From the NCBI RefSeq assembly GCF_000263735.1, contig NC_017946.1, positions 1,653,348-1,717,347 of the forward strand: 64,000 nt of DNA. Direction: 5' to 3'. The translations under genes were made by a program, and so were the position numbers. The notes below the pieces were generated by a model. The model did no database searches and had not been told where the DNA came from. It worked only from the letters and a program-made list of their open reading frames with translations. Below, in pieces: positions 47,508 to 55,187 of the stretch. Source of the DNA: Pyrococcus sp. ST04 (lineage in GTDB: Archaea > Methanobacteriota_B > Thermococci > Thermococcales > Thermococcaceae). Numbering within the stretch: position 1 is the first letter of the stretch; each line of letters opens with the position of its first letter.

Positions 47508-48335
<828 letters not shown>

Positions 48336-48355
48336 TATTTAATGGGCGTGATATA

Positions 48356-49135
48356 ATGCCCGATACCTTCCAAAGTGTCAAGATGGTTAGCGAATTCGGT
48401 ATGGTCATAGTCACTTCATTTTGGCTTTACTTCATGCTAAAACATCGTAAAGAGTTGCCATATTCTATAGGAAAGCTCGGAAAAATCCTCATCTTTGGTG
48501 TAATTCTCGTATGGACTGGCTTTATTGCAAACTTCCTTAATGAATTCATTCCAAGAATGACAACTTCCGCTGGCATAATAAGGATATCAAAGGTCATTGA
48601 TGACATTTTCATAATAATTGGAGCCTCTATAATAACATACTATCTATACAAAGTATTCGAAAAGGAAATAATCAAAGTAGAACCAGCCCATATTACAATT
48701 AGCAAAGAAAAAGAAACACTTAAACCAGGGGCATATCTAGCCCTTTCTCAATCTCCCAGGGATATAGTCAAGGTTCTGAAGGATAAAAGGGTCCTAGCGA
48801 TAACGCGTCATCCAGAGGTATATAACAACCTAGGAATTCCGTATATCTGGATAACGAAGATGGAGGGAGACAACACAATATATCCGACGAACCTCCCAAA
48901 GCTTCTCCATACCATGGTTACGAAAGCAGATAAGGATACAGCCTTTATCCTGGATGGACTTGAATACCTAATCCTAGAGAATGGTTTTGACAGTGTCATG
49001 AAGTTTCTCTCAAGTGCCAAGGATTATATGAGCATGAAAAATTCCACACTCATTGTAACCATTGGAAGGGGAACTCTTGACGAACACCAGCTGGCTATAT
49101 TAAAAAGAGAATTGGAGGAACTGGAAATAATTTAG
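48356..49135 (+). CDS. DUF835-type membrane protein
   Basis: The 259 residues have three hydrophobic helices in the first 105 residues and a cytoplasmic DUF835 domain (residues about 135-255) recognisable from [20 protein letters not shown] and [22 protein letters not shown]835 is common in Thermococcales and of unknown function. ATG 48356 (GGGCGTGAT upstream) is preferred to GTG 48332, which overlaps rsmA. It overlaps the convergent MAT gene by 4 bases. Confidence 0.75.
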
Positions 49136-50337: not shown

Positions 50338-50654
50338 GATCGTCACCCCGCTAACCCAACGCCCAACTAAACTTATATAATTTTCGGCATATAAAATACG
50401 TTTCGATTATTACCATCAGTTATGATTGAAGTTTGGGAAAACAGAAGAAAACTCAGATCACTAGGTTCTCCGAGCTGAAAAGAAGAATTTTTAGGAGCTT
50501 TTTGAATCCGCATTACCTCCTCCCTGTCCTAAAGGGCTAGGCTTGAAGAATAAAAGAACATCAAGGTATACTGTTTCATAAACTTGCCCAATGTTCTGAT
50601 TAAAATGCTGTAGAAAGATTATTATACTTTGGCTACATCATTTTTTGTGGCGAT
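50338..50654. repeat. Gap with an IS605-type right-end remnant
   Basis: No gene is seen. At 50516-50547 the plus strand reads CCTCCTCCCTGTCCTAAAGG and then GCTAGGCTTGAAG, a degenerate copy of the hairpin at 53304-53340. It marks the left side of the island with the ATPase gene. ATTATTATACTTT near 50620 is a candidate TATA box for the next gene. Confidence 0.5.
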
Positions 50655-51980
50655 ATGATGTTTGTGAACAGAAAACGGGAGCTTGAGTTTCTCGAAAGAA
50701 AGTGGAAAGAAAAGGGTGCACAGCTTATAATCATCTACGGGCGCAGAAGAATTGGTAAAACAATGCTCCTCAAGGAGTTCTTAAAAGGCAAAAAGGGAGT
50801 GTACTTCCTCGCCACCGCCGATTCCATGGGTGAGAACGTTAAAGAGCTAGCTGAGAAGTTCAGCGAGCTGGCTGGAAAGGAGTACTTCAGGGAAGTAAGG
50901 GACTTTGGGAGGCTCTTCCGCTACCTTGCGGAAGAAATAGGGAATGAAAAGGTTGCCATCGTTCTGGATGAGTTCCAGTATTTGATGAGCCTTGAGCCGG
51001 GAATTTTGAGCGCCCTCCAGAAGGTTTGGGACGAGCACCTTAAAGGCACAGAAATTTTCCTCGTGCTCTGCGGCTCCTCAATAGGAATGATGGAACGGAT
51101 CATGGAGTATAAAAGCCCCCTCTACGGGAGGAGAACCGGGCAGTGGAAGGTTGAGCCCTTCGACATCAAAGCTATAGCCGAAATGTTCCCAGAGAGGAGC
51201 ATGGAAGAGGTTGTAAAGATCTATGCCGTCTTTGGGGGCGTTCCGTTCTACCTTGACCTCGTGAAAAACCTCAGCGTTGAAAAAGCCATAAGGGAGAAGG
51301 TTTTGAGGAAGGGCGAAGTCCTCTACGAGGAGCCGGAATTTCTGCTCAGGGAAGAACTCAGGGAACCGAGAGTCTATAAGCTTATTCTCAAGGGATTAGC
51401 TCTAGGCTATGAAACGCTCGGGGAGCTCATGAGCTTTACGGGCCTTGAAAGGGGCAACATCTCAAAGTACCTTGATGTTCTTGAGAGGCTTGACTTGGTC
51501 GGTTACGAGCTTCCCTACGGGAAGAGGAAGAGAGGACGCTACTACATAAAAGACAACTTCTTCGCCTTCTGGTTCCGCTTCGTCTACCCAAACCTAGGAG
51601 ATTTGGAGCTCGGCCTAGTTGATGAGGTTTGGGAGAGGGTTGAGCGCGACCTGAACGCCTACTACGGTAAGATGTTCGAGAAACTGATAAGGGAAATGTT
51701 AAGACTTAGAATCCTTGACTTCGGGCAGAAAAAAGTCGCAAGATGGTGGCACAAAGGGGAAGAAATAGATGCCATAGTCGAGCTTAAGGATAGCCTTCTC
51801 TTCGTCGAGATCAAATGGAGCGAGCTGAAGAGGAAGGATGCGGAAAGAATACTGGAGAAGCTGAAGGAAAAGGCGGAGCGCTTCGAGGGCAAGAAAAGAT
51901 TTCTGCTTATAGCCAAGAAAATCAAGAAAAAAGACGAAGATATGATGGATTTGGATGACATTGAAGGACTTGTACGTTAG
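50655..51980 (+). CDS. Archaeal AAA-type ATPase with C-terminal DUF234 nuclease-like domain
   Basis: The 441-residue protein begins with an ATPase domain: Walker A IYGRRRIGKTMLLKEFL near 30, Walker B VAIVLDEFQYLMSLE near 100 and sensor LVLCGSSIGMMERI. A winged-helix part follows (ELMSFTGLERGNISKYLDVL). The C-terminal DUF234 region has EEIDAIVELKDSLLFVEIKW, which is the D-(x)n-ExK pattern of PD-(D/E)XK nucleases. The family is abundant and variable in hyperthermophilic archaea and may be a mobile or defence component. Its GC-richer codons differ from flanking core genes. Confidence 0.85.
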   Translation: MMFVNRKRELEFLERKWKEKGAQLIIIYGRRRIGKTMLLKEFLKGKKGVYFLATADSMGENVKELAEKFSELAGKEYFREVRDFGRLFRYLAEEIGNEKVAIVLDEFQYLMSLEPGILSALQKVWDEHLKGTEIFLVLCGSSIGMMERIMEYKSPLYGRRTGQWKVEPFDIKAIAEMFPERSMEEVVKIYAVFGGVPFYLDLVKNLSVEKAIREKVLRKGEVLYEEPEFLLREELREPRVYKLILKGLALGYETLGELMSFTGLERGNISKYLDVLERLDLVGYELPYGKRKRGRYYIKDNFFAFWFRFVYPNLGDLELGLVDEVWERVERDLNAYYGKMFEKLIREMLRLRILDFGQKKVARWWHKGEEIDAIVELKDSLLFVEIKWSELKRKDAERILEKLKEKAERFEGKKRFLLIAKKIKKKDEDMMDLDDIEGLVR

Positions 51981-52064
51981 CATCTTCGGGTGGAAGAGGT
52001 CAGCTTCTTCGAACCTTTTTATCCCTCTCTGGTTATCTCCCCCACTACATTCCGATATACCACC

Positions 52065-52922
52065 CTAAAGTCTCTTGAAAACCTCCTCAGCCTTCTTGAA
52101 CTCTTTTTTCTTGATATAGACCAAGGCCAGGTGGTAAATCCCGAGCCTGCACACATCCTCAAGCCAGGGAGCATCAAGCCCCTCTATCTCCCTTATCCTT
52201 CCCTCCAGCTCCTTTACGGTTTTGTTCATTGCCTCCTCGCTGTAGTCAAGCATCTTCAAGGCCTGAAGCATGGAGAGAACCTCCAGCTTGACCTCTTCGA
52301 TGGAACCAGAACCCCTCTGAGAGCTTGAGCTCAGGGTCTTCTTGAGCTCCGTCTCCTTCCTTTTAAGGCCCGCATAAGCTTCGAGGTATTTCAGGTATTT
52401 CTGGAACTCCGGCAGTCCGAGGAGGAACTTCTCATCGATGTGCGATCCCTTGTTTCTTAAGGATGGGTCCCATTCCTGTTCCAGCCTTTTACTGAGGTCC
52501 TTGGCGATCGGGAACACCTGAAGAAGGACCTTTTCCACCTCCCCGCTGTCCACATTCATGCCAATCCTTCGCAGTTCCCGTGAAAGGGCCCGGGCAAACT
52601 TCTTCCTCTTTGTTTCATCTCTCATAACCTCGTCGACGGTCGGCACGTAGAATCCGTCGTCAAGGAACTCTGGCTTCTTTACGTCTTCATATCCATATGT
52701 GACCTTTGTTTCCCCCACCTTCAGGTCCAGCAGGGCTCTCTTTACTGCTTCACCGAGGTGCTTATCGAACAGAGCTGCGGGTCTGCCCTTTTTATACTTG
52801 ATAACGATGGGTGTGAGTGAGAGATGCAGCAACTGCCTCCAGAGGTGCGCCTCCTTCACGTCCCGTTCCCTGCTCCCTGTGGTTTTGAGTATGGGTATCG
52901 GGGGATAGCCCACTACGGGCAT
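52065..52922 (-). CDS. Unknown protein, 285 residues, with TPR-like C-terminus
   Basis: I recognise no family. Features: an N-terminal segment VVGYPPIPILKTTGSRERD, a basic charged middle, a long helical part with a serine patch (TLSSSSQRGSGS near 197), and a final RLGIYHLALVYIKKKEFKKA followed by EEVFKRL, which looks like one TPR-type helix pair. The ATG at 52922 lacks a good ribosome site and overlaps the preceding small gene by 10 bases, so coupling is probable. GC-rich codons suggest transfer. Confidence 0.65.
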   Translation of the reverse strand: MPVVGYPPIPILKTTGSRERDVKEAHLWRQLLHLSLTPIVIKYKKGRPAALFDKHLGEAVKRALLDLKVGETKVTYGYEDVKKPEFLDDGFYVPTVDEVMRDETKRKKFARALSRELRRIGMNVDSGEVEKVLLQVFPIAKDLSKRLEQEWDPSLRNKGSHIDEKFLLGLPEFQKYLKYLEAYAGLKRKETELKKTLSSSSQRGSGSIEEVKLEVLSMLQALKMLDYSEEAMNKTVKELEGRIREIEGLDAPWLEDVCRLGIYHLALVYIKKKEFKKAEEVFKRL

Positions 52923-53137
52923 GGTGTGTGTGTCATGGCATCTCCTATCTTCCGTAGTGTGATGTCGTCGAGGTCGAAGACTTCCTTGATCGCATTTATT
53001 ATGTCTGGGGCGTGCGTTTCTCCTACCCCCAGTTGTTCGAATTTCTTATACTTCAGTCTCTTCTTCTCCTTCCCAAACCACCCCTTCGGCACCTCGTATT
53101 CTATGACGCCCTCTCCGATCTCGTAGTTGGGAGCCAT
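52913..53137 (-). CDS. Unknown small protein, 74 residues
   Basis: Starts MAPNYEIGEGVIEYEVPKGW behind a strong GGGGTGA site. It has a charged middle (FGKEKKRLKYKKFEQLG) and a helical C-terminal half (HAPDIINAIKEVFDLDDITL). No family recognised. It is the first gene of a two-gene unit with the 285-residue protein. A TATA-like TTTTTATATACTC lies near 53260 on the minus strand, leaving a leader of about 100 bases. Confidence 0.55.
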   Translation of the reverse strand: MAPNYEIGEGVIEYEVPKGWFGKEKKRLKYKKFEQLGVGETHAPDIINAIKEVFDLDDITLRKIGDAMTHTPCP

Positions 53138-53602
53138 TCTTCACCCCTCACAGATAACGTTCCCACATCTTCAGGCTTTTGACAGTCCTAATTCGGGCTT
53201 ACAAACCCCATATACTGAGGACTACACTACCACTAACAATAAGAACCTCAGAGTATATAAAAATTATACAGAACAAAAACCACTAGACTTTTTCTTTTTC
53301 TTTTGAAAGCCTCGCCCTTCAGGGCGGGGAGGAGGTCAGGCTTTTAACTCTCTATGAAACAGCTCATCATCTCACACTAAGCATCAGACATCTTGTTCTT
53401 GAATTCCCTCTCTGGAGATGGAGGTTGGGAGTGAACTTCCAGGTCTCCTCAACACGGCATTTCCGGCTTCATCGACGGCTATCTTCATCTTCTTGCTGTC
53501 TTGTATTCTATATTTATCTCCTGAGCTACTGGTAGAGGCAATAAAAACATGAGAAAACCATGAGCAACTTCTTCATCCCCACTATCCCAACCTGAAAAGA
53601 TG
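53138..53602. repeat. Gap with a well-preserved IS605-type right-end hairpin
   Basis: On the minus strand 53340-53304 reads CCTGACCTCCTCCCCGCCCT, then GAAGGGCGAGGCTTTC, with a perfect CGCCC-TGAA-GGGCG stem, as at the right end of tnpB elements. About 45 bases upstream of it (53520-53385, minus) an open stretch reads KMKIAVDEAGNAVLRRPGSS and ends in a stop; it may be the last codons of a lost tnpB, but this is a guess. Nothing else is recognised. Confidence 0.5.
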
Positions 53603-55045
53603 CTACCCGAACAGCAGGTATGCAAAGGGGAACCTCGTGTTATGGTTCGCGTTCTTTACACGATACCTCAACTCTGCATATTTGACAGTGGTCTCAACAT
53701 CGCTGGACTGATCCACGATGGTGAAGGCGCCAAAGGCCTTTTCGTGTTCCTCGTTGGTGATGTAAACACCTCCAACCGCGCTCAAACCTATCATAAAAGC
53801 CGGCCACGCCTCGGGCTGGAGGGCAACGGCAACAGCAAGCAACGGAACGTACGAGTTCGAGTAGGTATCGTACTCGTCCAGGAAAATCTCCATGTGGGAG
53901 GATCTGCCGGCTTGGTTTTCCCCGTAGAGTGTCGTTAGCGTCTTCATCTCCGCGTTCTCTTTAACGAGCCGTTCAAAGTTGTCCGCAGGATAAACGCTCT
54001 TCGGGGGGTTCACGAAGGAGAAAGTTTTGATAAAGTAGACTTTCCTTCCGGGGTCGTAGACCCGTTCAACATCTGAAACCGTTATGAGCACCCTCTCCTG
54101 GTCAGTGTCAAAGCAGTGCGTCTTCCTGAATTCATCCACGTAACACCTCTGGAGAACCTGGAGGGCTATGTAGGGCTTCCCCTTGATGGCTATTACTCCA
54201 ACTTGACCAGGTTTGACGTTTTTAACCTCCCCGTCGATGATTGACCTAATAAACTCGTTGCCCTTTTTCACCTCGATCCGTATCTCCCCGCTCTCCAGAC
54301 CACGCTCAACGCTCGACTCACTCTTACTGCTCAACCGCGATCCCCTGATCACGGTGGTCGAGAAACCAATGGAAAGCCCCGAGGAGCCCGACGAGCTTTT
54401 CTGAACCTCCACTTTGTAGGCCCCAAGAACCGTTGCCCTGCCTTTTCTGTTGTCCAGTATCAGAACCGGGAGATACATACCCCGTGGATAGTCGTCCTCT
54501 CTGAGATATTCCTTCTTGGTCCTCCAGCGGTAGCCCGCAAAAAACCCTCTAGTTGGAGTAATGGTGGGAATCCCCTCTGACTCCTCCCTTGAAAAAACAC
54601 GAAGATCATCTCTGGAAAAGTTTGGAGCGAAGCGCTGAAAGCCCTCAATCGAGTTCTCAGTAAGTCTCGTGCTGAAGGTACCCACCTCGTACGCTTCCCC
54701 GGTTTCGGGTTCAACGATCCACACGTCAACGAGAACCGCTGGGTTTACGTCCTTCCAGGCACTCCGGATCTTGGAGAGCTTTGAACTCGGAATAAACACT
54801 TTTCCATGAGAGCTACCAAGGTAAATGGTTCTGAAGCCCTCCCGTGTCATCACCTGAACCTGGACGTAGTACTCGTACTTTGGAAGAAGCCAGCTGACGA
54901 AAGCGTTCCGGCCCATTACTTTATCTGGATTTGGAAGTTCAATCAACAGACCTCGCTTGGGCTTGCTAAAGAAATGATGTCCCCAAACACTACCCGTCAA
55001 TAGCACTATCAGGACGATTACAAGCGTTATTCTTCTCTTTTTCAT
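53603..55045 (-). CDS. Large secreted protein of unknown function
   Basis: The protein of 480 residues begins MKKRRITLVIVLIVLLTGSV, a signal peptide or anchor (ATG 55045; ATG 55051 is two codons earlier). The remainder is beta-rich by eye with an SSSGSSGLSIGFSTT segment near 230, a cysteine pair (CYVDEFRKTHC) near 315, and a late hydrophobic stretch SYVPLLAVAVALQPEAWPAF near 405 that may insert in the membrane. I know no homologue. The base composition is clearly GC-richer than neighbouring core genes. It is a single-gene unit with a TATA-like AATTTAAAATAAATT near 55073. Confidence 0.65.
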   Translation of the reverse strand: MKKRRITLVIVLIVLLTGSVWGHHFFSKPKRGLLIELPNPDKVMGRNAFVSWLLPKYEYYVQVQVMTREGFRTIYLGSSHGKVFIPSSKLSKIRSAWKDVNPAVLVDVWIVEPETGEAYEVGTFSTRLTENSIEGFQRFAPNFSRDDLRVFSREESEGIPTITPTRGFFAGYRWRTKKEYLREDDYPRGMYLPVLILDNRKGRATVLGAYKVEVQKSSSGSSGLSIGFSTTVIRGSRLSSKSESSVERGLESGEIRIEVKKGNEFIRSIIDGEVKNVKPGQVGVIAIKGKPYIALQVLQRCYVDEFRKTHCFDTDQERVLITVSDVERVYDPGRKVYFIKTFSFVNPPKSVYPADNFERLVKENAEMKTLTTLYGENQAGRSSHMEIFLDEYDTYSNSYVPLLAVAVALQPEAWPAFMIGLSAVGGVYITNEEHEKAFGAFTIVDQSSDVETTVKYAELRYRVKNANHNTRFPFAYLLFG

Positions 55046-55187
55046 ATGCATTATGCTCTGATTAATTTATTTTAAATTTTTCCTTGTTTGAGTAATTCCA
55101 ACATCATTGCACAACGTTATGAGATGGAGCAACTTTTAATTAACGCACTGCCAAGATTTCCTTGAAGGGAAAACCGGGGTGATTGGA

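Follow-up and report, generated by a model that had tools for sequence, protein, structure and literature searches.

In Pyrococcus sp. ST04, an island between MAT and the Toprim-xerA operon contains two open reading frames that meet, in different frames, at a short dinucleotide repeat. Are these two genes, or one gene that is interrupted at the repeat, and could the length of the repeat switch it on and off? We considered these questions for the 64,000 nucleotides at positions 1653348-1717347 of the genome, which is a single contig of 1,736,885 bp. We will call this stretch the window, and all of its coordinates below count from its first letter. From comparisons with relatives, we consider it fairly probable that the gene in the window is a phase-variable (repeat-switched) locus, that it lies in a horizontally acquired island, and that it belongs to a family that is often linked to DUF234 ATPases.

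The N-terminal part of the interrupted gene, o74, encodes 74 amino acids (52913-53137, minus strand), and the C-terminal part, o285, encodes 285 amino acids (52065-52922, minus strand). At the frame junction is an (AC)5 tract (52924-52933, minus strand). Its sequence, ACACACACAC, is present at only this one site in the 1.74-Mb genome, with either strand counted (one site in the window versus 0.01 expected). Homologues of o74 are also paired with C-terminal parts at two other loci: the gene at L058a is split at (AC)5, and L161a has (AC)5.5. In the o74 region, DNA identity is 80-81% over 53048-53154. The first-pass annotation described an overlapping pair of unknown genes, but o74 and o285 are better read as one gene that is interrupted at the tract.

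Relatives of o285, as identified with a hidden Markov model for the family, are present in 52 of 94 Thermococcaceae genomes (E ≤ 0.001). When 115 genomes were drawn from across the phylum, every one of the 51 genomes that matched at 1e-5 belonged to Thermococcaceae, and relatives with a named record are labelled Thermococcus or Thermococcaceae. By these searches, the family is confined to Thermococcaceae; among nine Pyrococcus genomes, only ST04 has it. Most members are interrupted where the N-terminal part meets the C-terminal part. Using a list of motifs, we recognized an N-terminal part for 48 of 65 unique C-terminal domains (and not for the other 17): it was in another frame in 34 cases, separated by a stop codon in 6, and open in 8 (one of which, L177, is trivial). 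The N-terminal part often starts with LSLLPLxGMFIFGGKKK or xGLFGxxK, and the copy in the window has KGWFGKEKK. The uninterrupted copies include L161b, L132a, L114a, L147, and L158. Four other loci, L122, L136, L114 (13407-14049), and L174, have at least two breaks each, which could reflect decay or switching at several tracts. We also noticed a near-invariant hinge, IEPELEEFRQFLAEISGKK, in L185-L196 and in the A2 family members, which connects variable middle parts with C-terminal modules of two or more kinds and suggests modular shuffling.

The conserved domain in o285 is all-helical in its AlphaFold2 model, which was built from nine sequences and has 14 helices (predicted local distance difference test or pLDDT of 67.5; predicted template modeling score or pTM of 0.49). 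A fold search with this model gave no match in the PDB at E ≤ 0.001, and a search for o285 in plasmids gave no match either. Most hits in a profile search of PDB sequences were designed helical proteins (best E = 0.0006), which we attribute to composition. We did not use the sub-threshold similarities of o74 to RusA (Pfam, E = 0.055) or of o285 to RecX or TPR proteins.

We surveyed the frame junctions of the family for repeats. We defined a strong tract as a run of at least 7 identical nucleotides, or at least 4 copies of a dinucleotide, inside the window of frame overlap, and we computed the expected counts from windows of the same length in the same loci. In an unselected survey of 88 unique C-terminal frames, 78 were testable and 48 of these had a strong tract, compared to 2.4 expected (P = 3e-63; this P value is indicative, as control windows overlap and related loci are counted separately). 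Strong tracts are thus about 20 times more common at the junction than in nearby DNA. Among twenty loci that were fetched later, 10 of 18 testable frames had a strong tract, versus 0.7 expected (P = 5e-12). We also listed frames by eye: 44 of 57 were kept (the other 13 were open, had no clear upstream reading frame, or were broken elsewhere), and two of the 44 had no reading frame in another frame, which left 42. Of these, 34 had a strong tract, versus 1.1 expected. Because that set was selected by hand, the unselected survey (48 of 78) is the figure to trust.

The type of tract varies by subfamily. (AC)4-5 tracts are found in the gene in the window, L058a/b, L059, L155, L180, and others; (TA)4-5 or (AT)4-5 tracts in L143, L145, L148-L151, L154, L159, and L166; A7-8 tracts in L131, L141, L153, L155, L157, L162, L163, and L168; and (AG)4-5 tracts in L167, L206, L209, and L210. 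These encode different codons (THT, YIY, or KK) at the same junction, which argues against a single conserved peptide motif as the cause.

Where the flanking sequences are similar, the frame tracks the length of the tract. L161b has (AC)6 and is open across 402 codons, while L058b with (AC)4 and L059 with (AC)5 are broken. In an (AT)n series, L174 has (AT)3 and is in frame at the tract (it is broken elsewhere), L154 and L159 have (AT)4, and L148 has (AT)5. In an A series, L155, L162, and L163 have A7 and L153 has A8. Similarly, the tract of L132a is interrupted and its frame is open, while L169 and L183 have an unbroken (CA)4C and a broken frame. These alleles were compared between species only, with one genome per species. 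We also estimated the ratio of nonsynonymous to synonymous substitution rates (dN/dS) for pairs of relatives, on both sides of the tract. Ten comparisons were usable and non-zero and gave ratios of 0.10-0.62, with 0.21-0.42 for the C-terminal parts (the other two of the twelve gave no ratio or zero). Both halves of the interrupted gene are under purifying selection, so the interrupted copies are not simply decaying.

We propose that an N-terminal part of 70-100 amino acids and the helical C-terminal part meet at a short tract, which is (AC)5 in the window, and that slipped-strand changes in the length of this tract would bring the C-terminal part into frame or take it out. The clone that was sequenced would then be OFF: it would make the 74-amino-acid N-terminal part and possibly a C-terminal part that is started separately. 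Switching would occur within a population and would be selected for, and the full-length protein may regulate or feed a DUF234 ATPase whose role would be defence-like. As expected for phase variation by simple sequence repeats (SSRs), the tract is in the coding region at the interruption, both in the window and in the 48 family frames, and there are alleles that differ in tract length and frame but are otherwise conserved, as seen between species.

Several observations weigh against this proposal. Length variation is known only between species, so switching within a species is our inference, and 30 of the 78 testable frames have no strong tract. At 4-6 units, the tracts are short compared to those of many bacterial contingency loci, so the rates of switching may be low. 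Few copies are open (8 of the 48 with a recognized N-terminal part), and the extra breaks in L122, L136, L114b, and L174 are as expected from decay; slippage hot spots would also collect random frameshifts. ST04 lacks the upstream ATPase on the same strand that is canonical for the family. Finally, o285 has its own ATG just 1 nt past the tract and may be made separately.

This last point, together with the o74 stop codon 7 nt from that ATG and a purine-rich stretch upstream of o74 that resembles a ribosome-binding site (by eye), is what one would expect of two overlapping and translationally coupled genes, such as a small regulator and its effector, with the tract being incidental. We consider this quite improbable, as the arrangement is not a rule of the family. 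Just 13 of 34 tract loci have a start codon within 30 nt past the tract (ATG in 8 of them), and in 4 of the 34, including the copy in the window, an ATG and the upstream stop codon are no more than 10 nt apart. Also, the similarity of L058b to the protein of L059 or L161b extends to the tract, which precedes every start codon in L058b. Programmed recoding, in which the ribosome or RNA polymerase slips at a set rate and an unchanged gene yields a short protein as well as the full-length one, would fit with the conserved junction and with purifying selection on both sides of it, and RNA polymerase and ribosomes may slip on A7-8, (TA)n, and (AC)n, too. But programmed frameshifting should have a constant direction at a conserved site, and instead a shift of 1 is needed in 16 of 42 frames and a shift of 2 in 26 of 42, with both kinds even among the A7 tracts. 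The needed shift follows the length of the tract among relatives, and some copies, as listed above, are not interrupted at all. Transcriptional slippage may act in either direction, but we think that programmed recoding is an unlikely explanation overall.

The scarcity of open copies, the several members with more than one break, and the patchy distribution of the family could also mean that these genes are decaying and that pseudogene frameshifts gather at repeat hot spots. This seems rather improbable, given dN/dS ratios of 0.1-0.6 (0.2-0.4 for the C-terminal parts) even when pairs of interrupted copies are compared. The breaks also cluster at one border, with the roughly 20-fold excess of strong tracts there. 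Hot spots acting on dying genes can explain the breaks at tracts, but they do not account for the presence of tracts of differing chemistry at one border. Errors in sequencing or assembly at repeats are a concern because many family members are from draft genomes, but we consider this explanation very improbable. Sequencing rarely miscalls dinucleotide tracts of 8-10 nt. When the hand list was restricted to loci that we took, again by hand, as coming from near-complete genomes, 16 of 22 frames still had a strong tract, versus 0.4 expected, and L058a and L161a, from different genomes, have the interruption in common.

Switching by the repeat thus remains our preferred reading, and we now turn to where the gene came from. 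The island (50419-55122) is an insertion: MAT directly adjoins Toprim and then xerA in all eight of the other Pyrococcus genomes (G001-G008), with a spacer of about 120-160 bp, while about 4.7 kb separates MAT from Toprim-xerA in ST04 alone among the Pyrococcus genomes that we examined. In the alignment of the flanks, the left side matches up to CAGTTAT and the right side resumes from GCAACTTTTAATTA. The GC content is 0.47-0.51 across 50.5-55 kb versus roughly 0.42-0.44 around it. GC content at third codon positions (GC3) is 0.627 for the ATPase gene, 0.675 for o285, 0.653 for o74, and 0.623 for the gene for a secreted protein (sec482), and all four are above the eight flanking genes that we measured (0.394-0.472). 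The closest relatives, at the DNA level, of the ATPase and of the o74/o285 gene are in the Thermococcus-type loci L161, L189, and L058. Because of the empty site in eight of eight relatives, the raised GC3, and these nearest relatives, we believe that the island is foreign and was probably acquired horizontally from a Thermococcus-type donor. The first-pass annotation had suggested a foreign island with GC-richer codons than its flanks, and both ideas held up; it would have been abandoned had every Pyrococcus carried all the genes at this place with ordinary composition, which is not what we found. The 7-bp sequence GTTATGA is present on both sides of the island (50419-50425 and 55116-55122). 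A shared 7-mer has a chance probability of 0.026 for zones of this size, which is weak by itself, and GTTAT is kept at the insertion spot in all 8 aligned relatives. This repeat is only suggestive of a 7-bp target duplication.

The other large component of the island is a DUF234 ATPase cassette (50603-51980, plus strand), which includes an upstream block of about 50 bp and the coding sequence (50655-51980; 441 amino acids). The annotation as an AAA/DUF234 ATPase was borne out: matches to both ATPase_2 (PF01637; 1.6e-31, 110.3 bits, cut-off 33.2) and DUF234 (PF03008; 1.4e-27, 96.4 bits, cut-off 22.5) are above their cut-offs. By eye, the protein also has a PD-(D/E)XK-like end. In PADLOC, it matches PDC-S27 (E = 5.4e-50, profile positions 3-437 of 474), and given this match and the genomic linkage, a role in defence is plausible. 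Of the defence or competition module that the first-pass annotation had suggested, this much is plausible for the ATPase. There are eight matches in phage records, but these are distant (25-36%) and seven are from human faecal samples. DNA similarity to L161, L189, L169, and L054-L057 starts about 50 bp upstream of the ATG (at 50602-50606, or at 50618 in L057) and stops at or before the stop codon, with unrelated flanks, so this clade of ATPases behaves as a cassette in unrelated surroundings and may move as a single gene. In this, the island copy, a stand-alone block plus gene, differs from other archaeal ATPases of the DUF234/ATPase_2 type, whose domains it shares.

In the window, as in L161 and L189, the cassette and a member of the o285 family are arranged tail-to-tail, and L058 has a 5' remnant of the cassette (about 105 bp) at the corresponding place. 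This shared layout ties the island to the Thermococcus-type loci. The interrupted gene would have moved into the ST04 genome in its OFF state. More broadly, 18 of 40 loci that are centred on family members (L145-L184; some are cut by contig ends) have a DUF234-type ATPase on the same strand that ends less than 1 kb upstream. The alignment of 51981-52064 to an o285-type tail was weak (p = 0.013 with L161 and 0.275 with L058), and we do not claim a remnant of another such tail there.

The remaining gene of the island, sec482 (53603-55051, minus strand), encodes a predicted secreted protein, judging from an N-terminal hydrophobic stretch seen by eye. Its earlier description as a secreted protein stands, but its length is 482 amino acids and not 480. 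A model from the single sequence was unusable (pLDDT of 33). Relatives at 59-73% identity are present in four of the eight other Pyrococcus genomes, at other places (a few kb past GAPDH in G001 and G002, and elsewhere in G003 and G006), and there are distant relatives in Thermococcaceae. Because those relatives are placed elsewhere, we see no sign of joint action by the three island genes, and we regard sec482 as an accessory gene. Outside of the island, a gene of 267 amino acids between KsgA and MAT (48332-49135) is full length in G003 and G004, is a fragment in G006 and G008, and was not found in the stretches fetched from G001, G002, G005, and G007.

The first-pass annotation also reported two IS605-type hairpins. 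One is an exact, orphan right end: 53304-53340 (plus strand) contains a perfect copy of GCCCTTYAGGGCGGGGAGGAGGTC (0 mismatches; minimum free energy -18.5 kcal/mol, z = -0.89). We identify this motif as TnpB-linked because, elsewhere in ST04, there is a copy some 170 bp past the 3' side of a TnpB gene (match to the TnpB C-terminal domain at genome positions 1553647-1553847, minus strand). The other hairpin (50514-50555, minus strand) is degenerate and only right-end-like: its copy of the motif, at 50516-50547, has 3 mismatches and the opposite orientation, and it folds no better than shuffled sequences (z = +0.69). The genome has 21 sites that match the motif with at most 3 mismatches (a reversed-pattern control gave 0) but just five matches to the C-terminal domain of TnpB, so most of these ends are orphans. 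Although the island hairpin resembles the ends of IS200/IS605-type TnpB elements, we found no TnpA or TnpB among the four island proteins scanned, the two ends are inverted relative to each other, and both are internal to the insertion, so neither marks its boundary. We therefore rejected the idea that the island is an IS605 composite element. An Rfam search of 50-56 kb gave no match.

How does this family compare to known systems? Most known cases of phase variation driven by repeats are bacterial. Like bacterial SSR contingency loci as described in excerpts of two papers (PMC11868660, PMC3711429), which are often tied to defence or surface genes, the o285 family has a short mono- or dinucleotide tract in the coding region, whose length sets the frame, and conserved halves. 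The family differs in being archaeal, in having 4-6 units and several tract chemistries at one junction, in the position of the tract after an N-terminal part of 70-100 amino acids rather than near the start, and in being known from sequences alone. The VARTIG hypervariable islands (PMC8416519) are also modular and restricted to Thermococcales, but they are built on secreted Ig-domain proteins, and the terms "frameshift", "ATPase", and "DUF234" are absent from the available portion of that paper.

Among titles and openings of abstracts in the open-access literature, we found no description of repeat-switched genes in Thermococcales. In its accessible part, a 2025 review of phase variation names archaea only as a future direction (PMC11868660). 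An earlier paper surveyed homopolymer tracts in 18 archaeal genomes and proposes a general silencing role for them (PMC2831843), so tracts in archaea have been considered before.

We can imagine, at somewhat less than an even chance, a broader picture in which Thermococcaceae hold many repeat-switched loci that turn partners of DUF234 AAA+/nuclease defence ATPases ON and OFF and that move between genera as islands, with one family keeping several unrelated types of slippery tract at one protein junction. If true, then SSR phase variation would be a general bet-hedging device in hyperthermophilic archaea. Tract-controlled frames would explain why genes of this family look split or pseudogene-like, and the family would offer a way into the function of the DUF234 ATPases, which are very numerous (there are 3 DUF234-type matches in ST04 and 2-27 in the other eight Pyrococcus genomes). 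It would also bear on how tracts mutate in organisms with replicative polymerases that slip in vitro, as is reported for PolB and PolD from P. abyssi (PMC4134008). With a large tract-controlled family in the tractable Thermococcales, bet-hedging in archaea could be tested directly.

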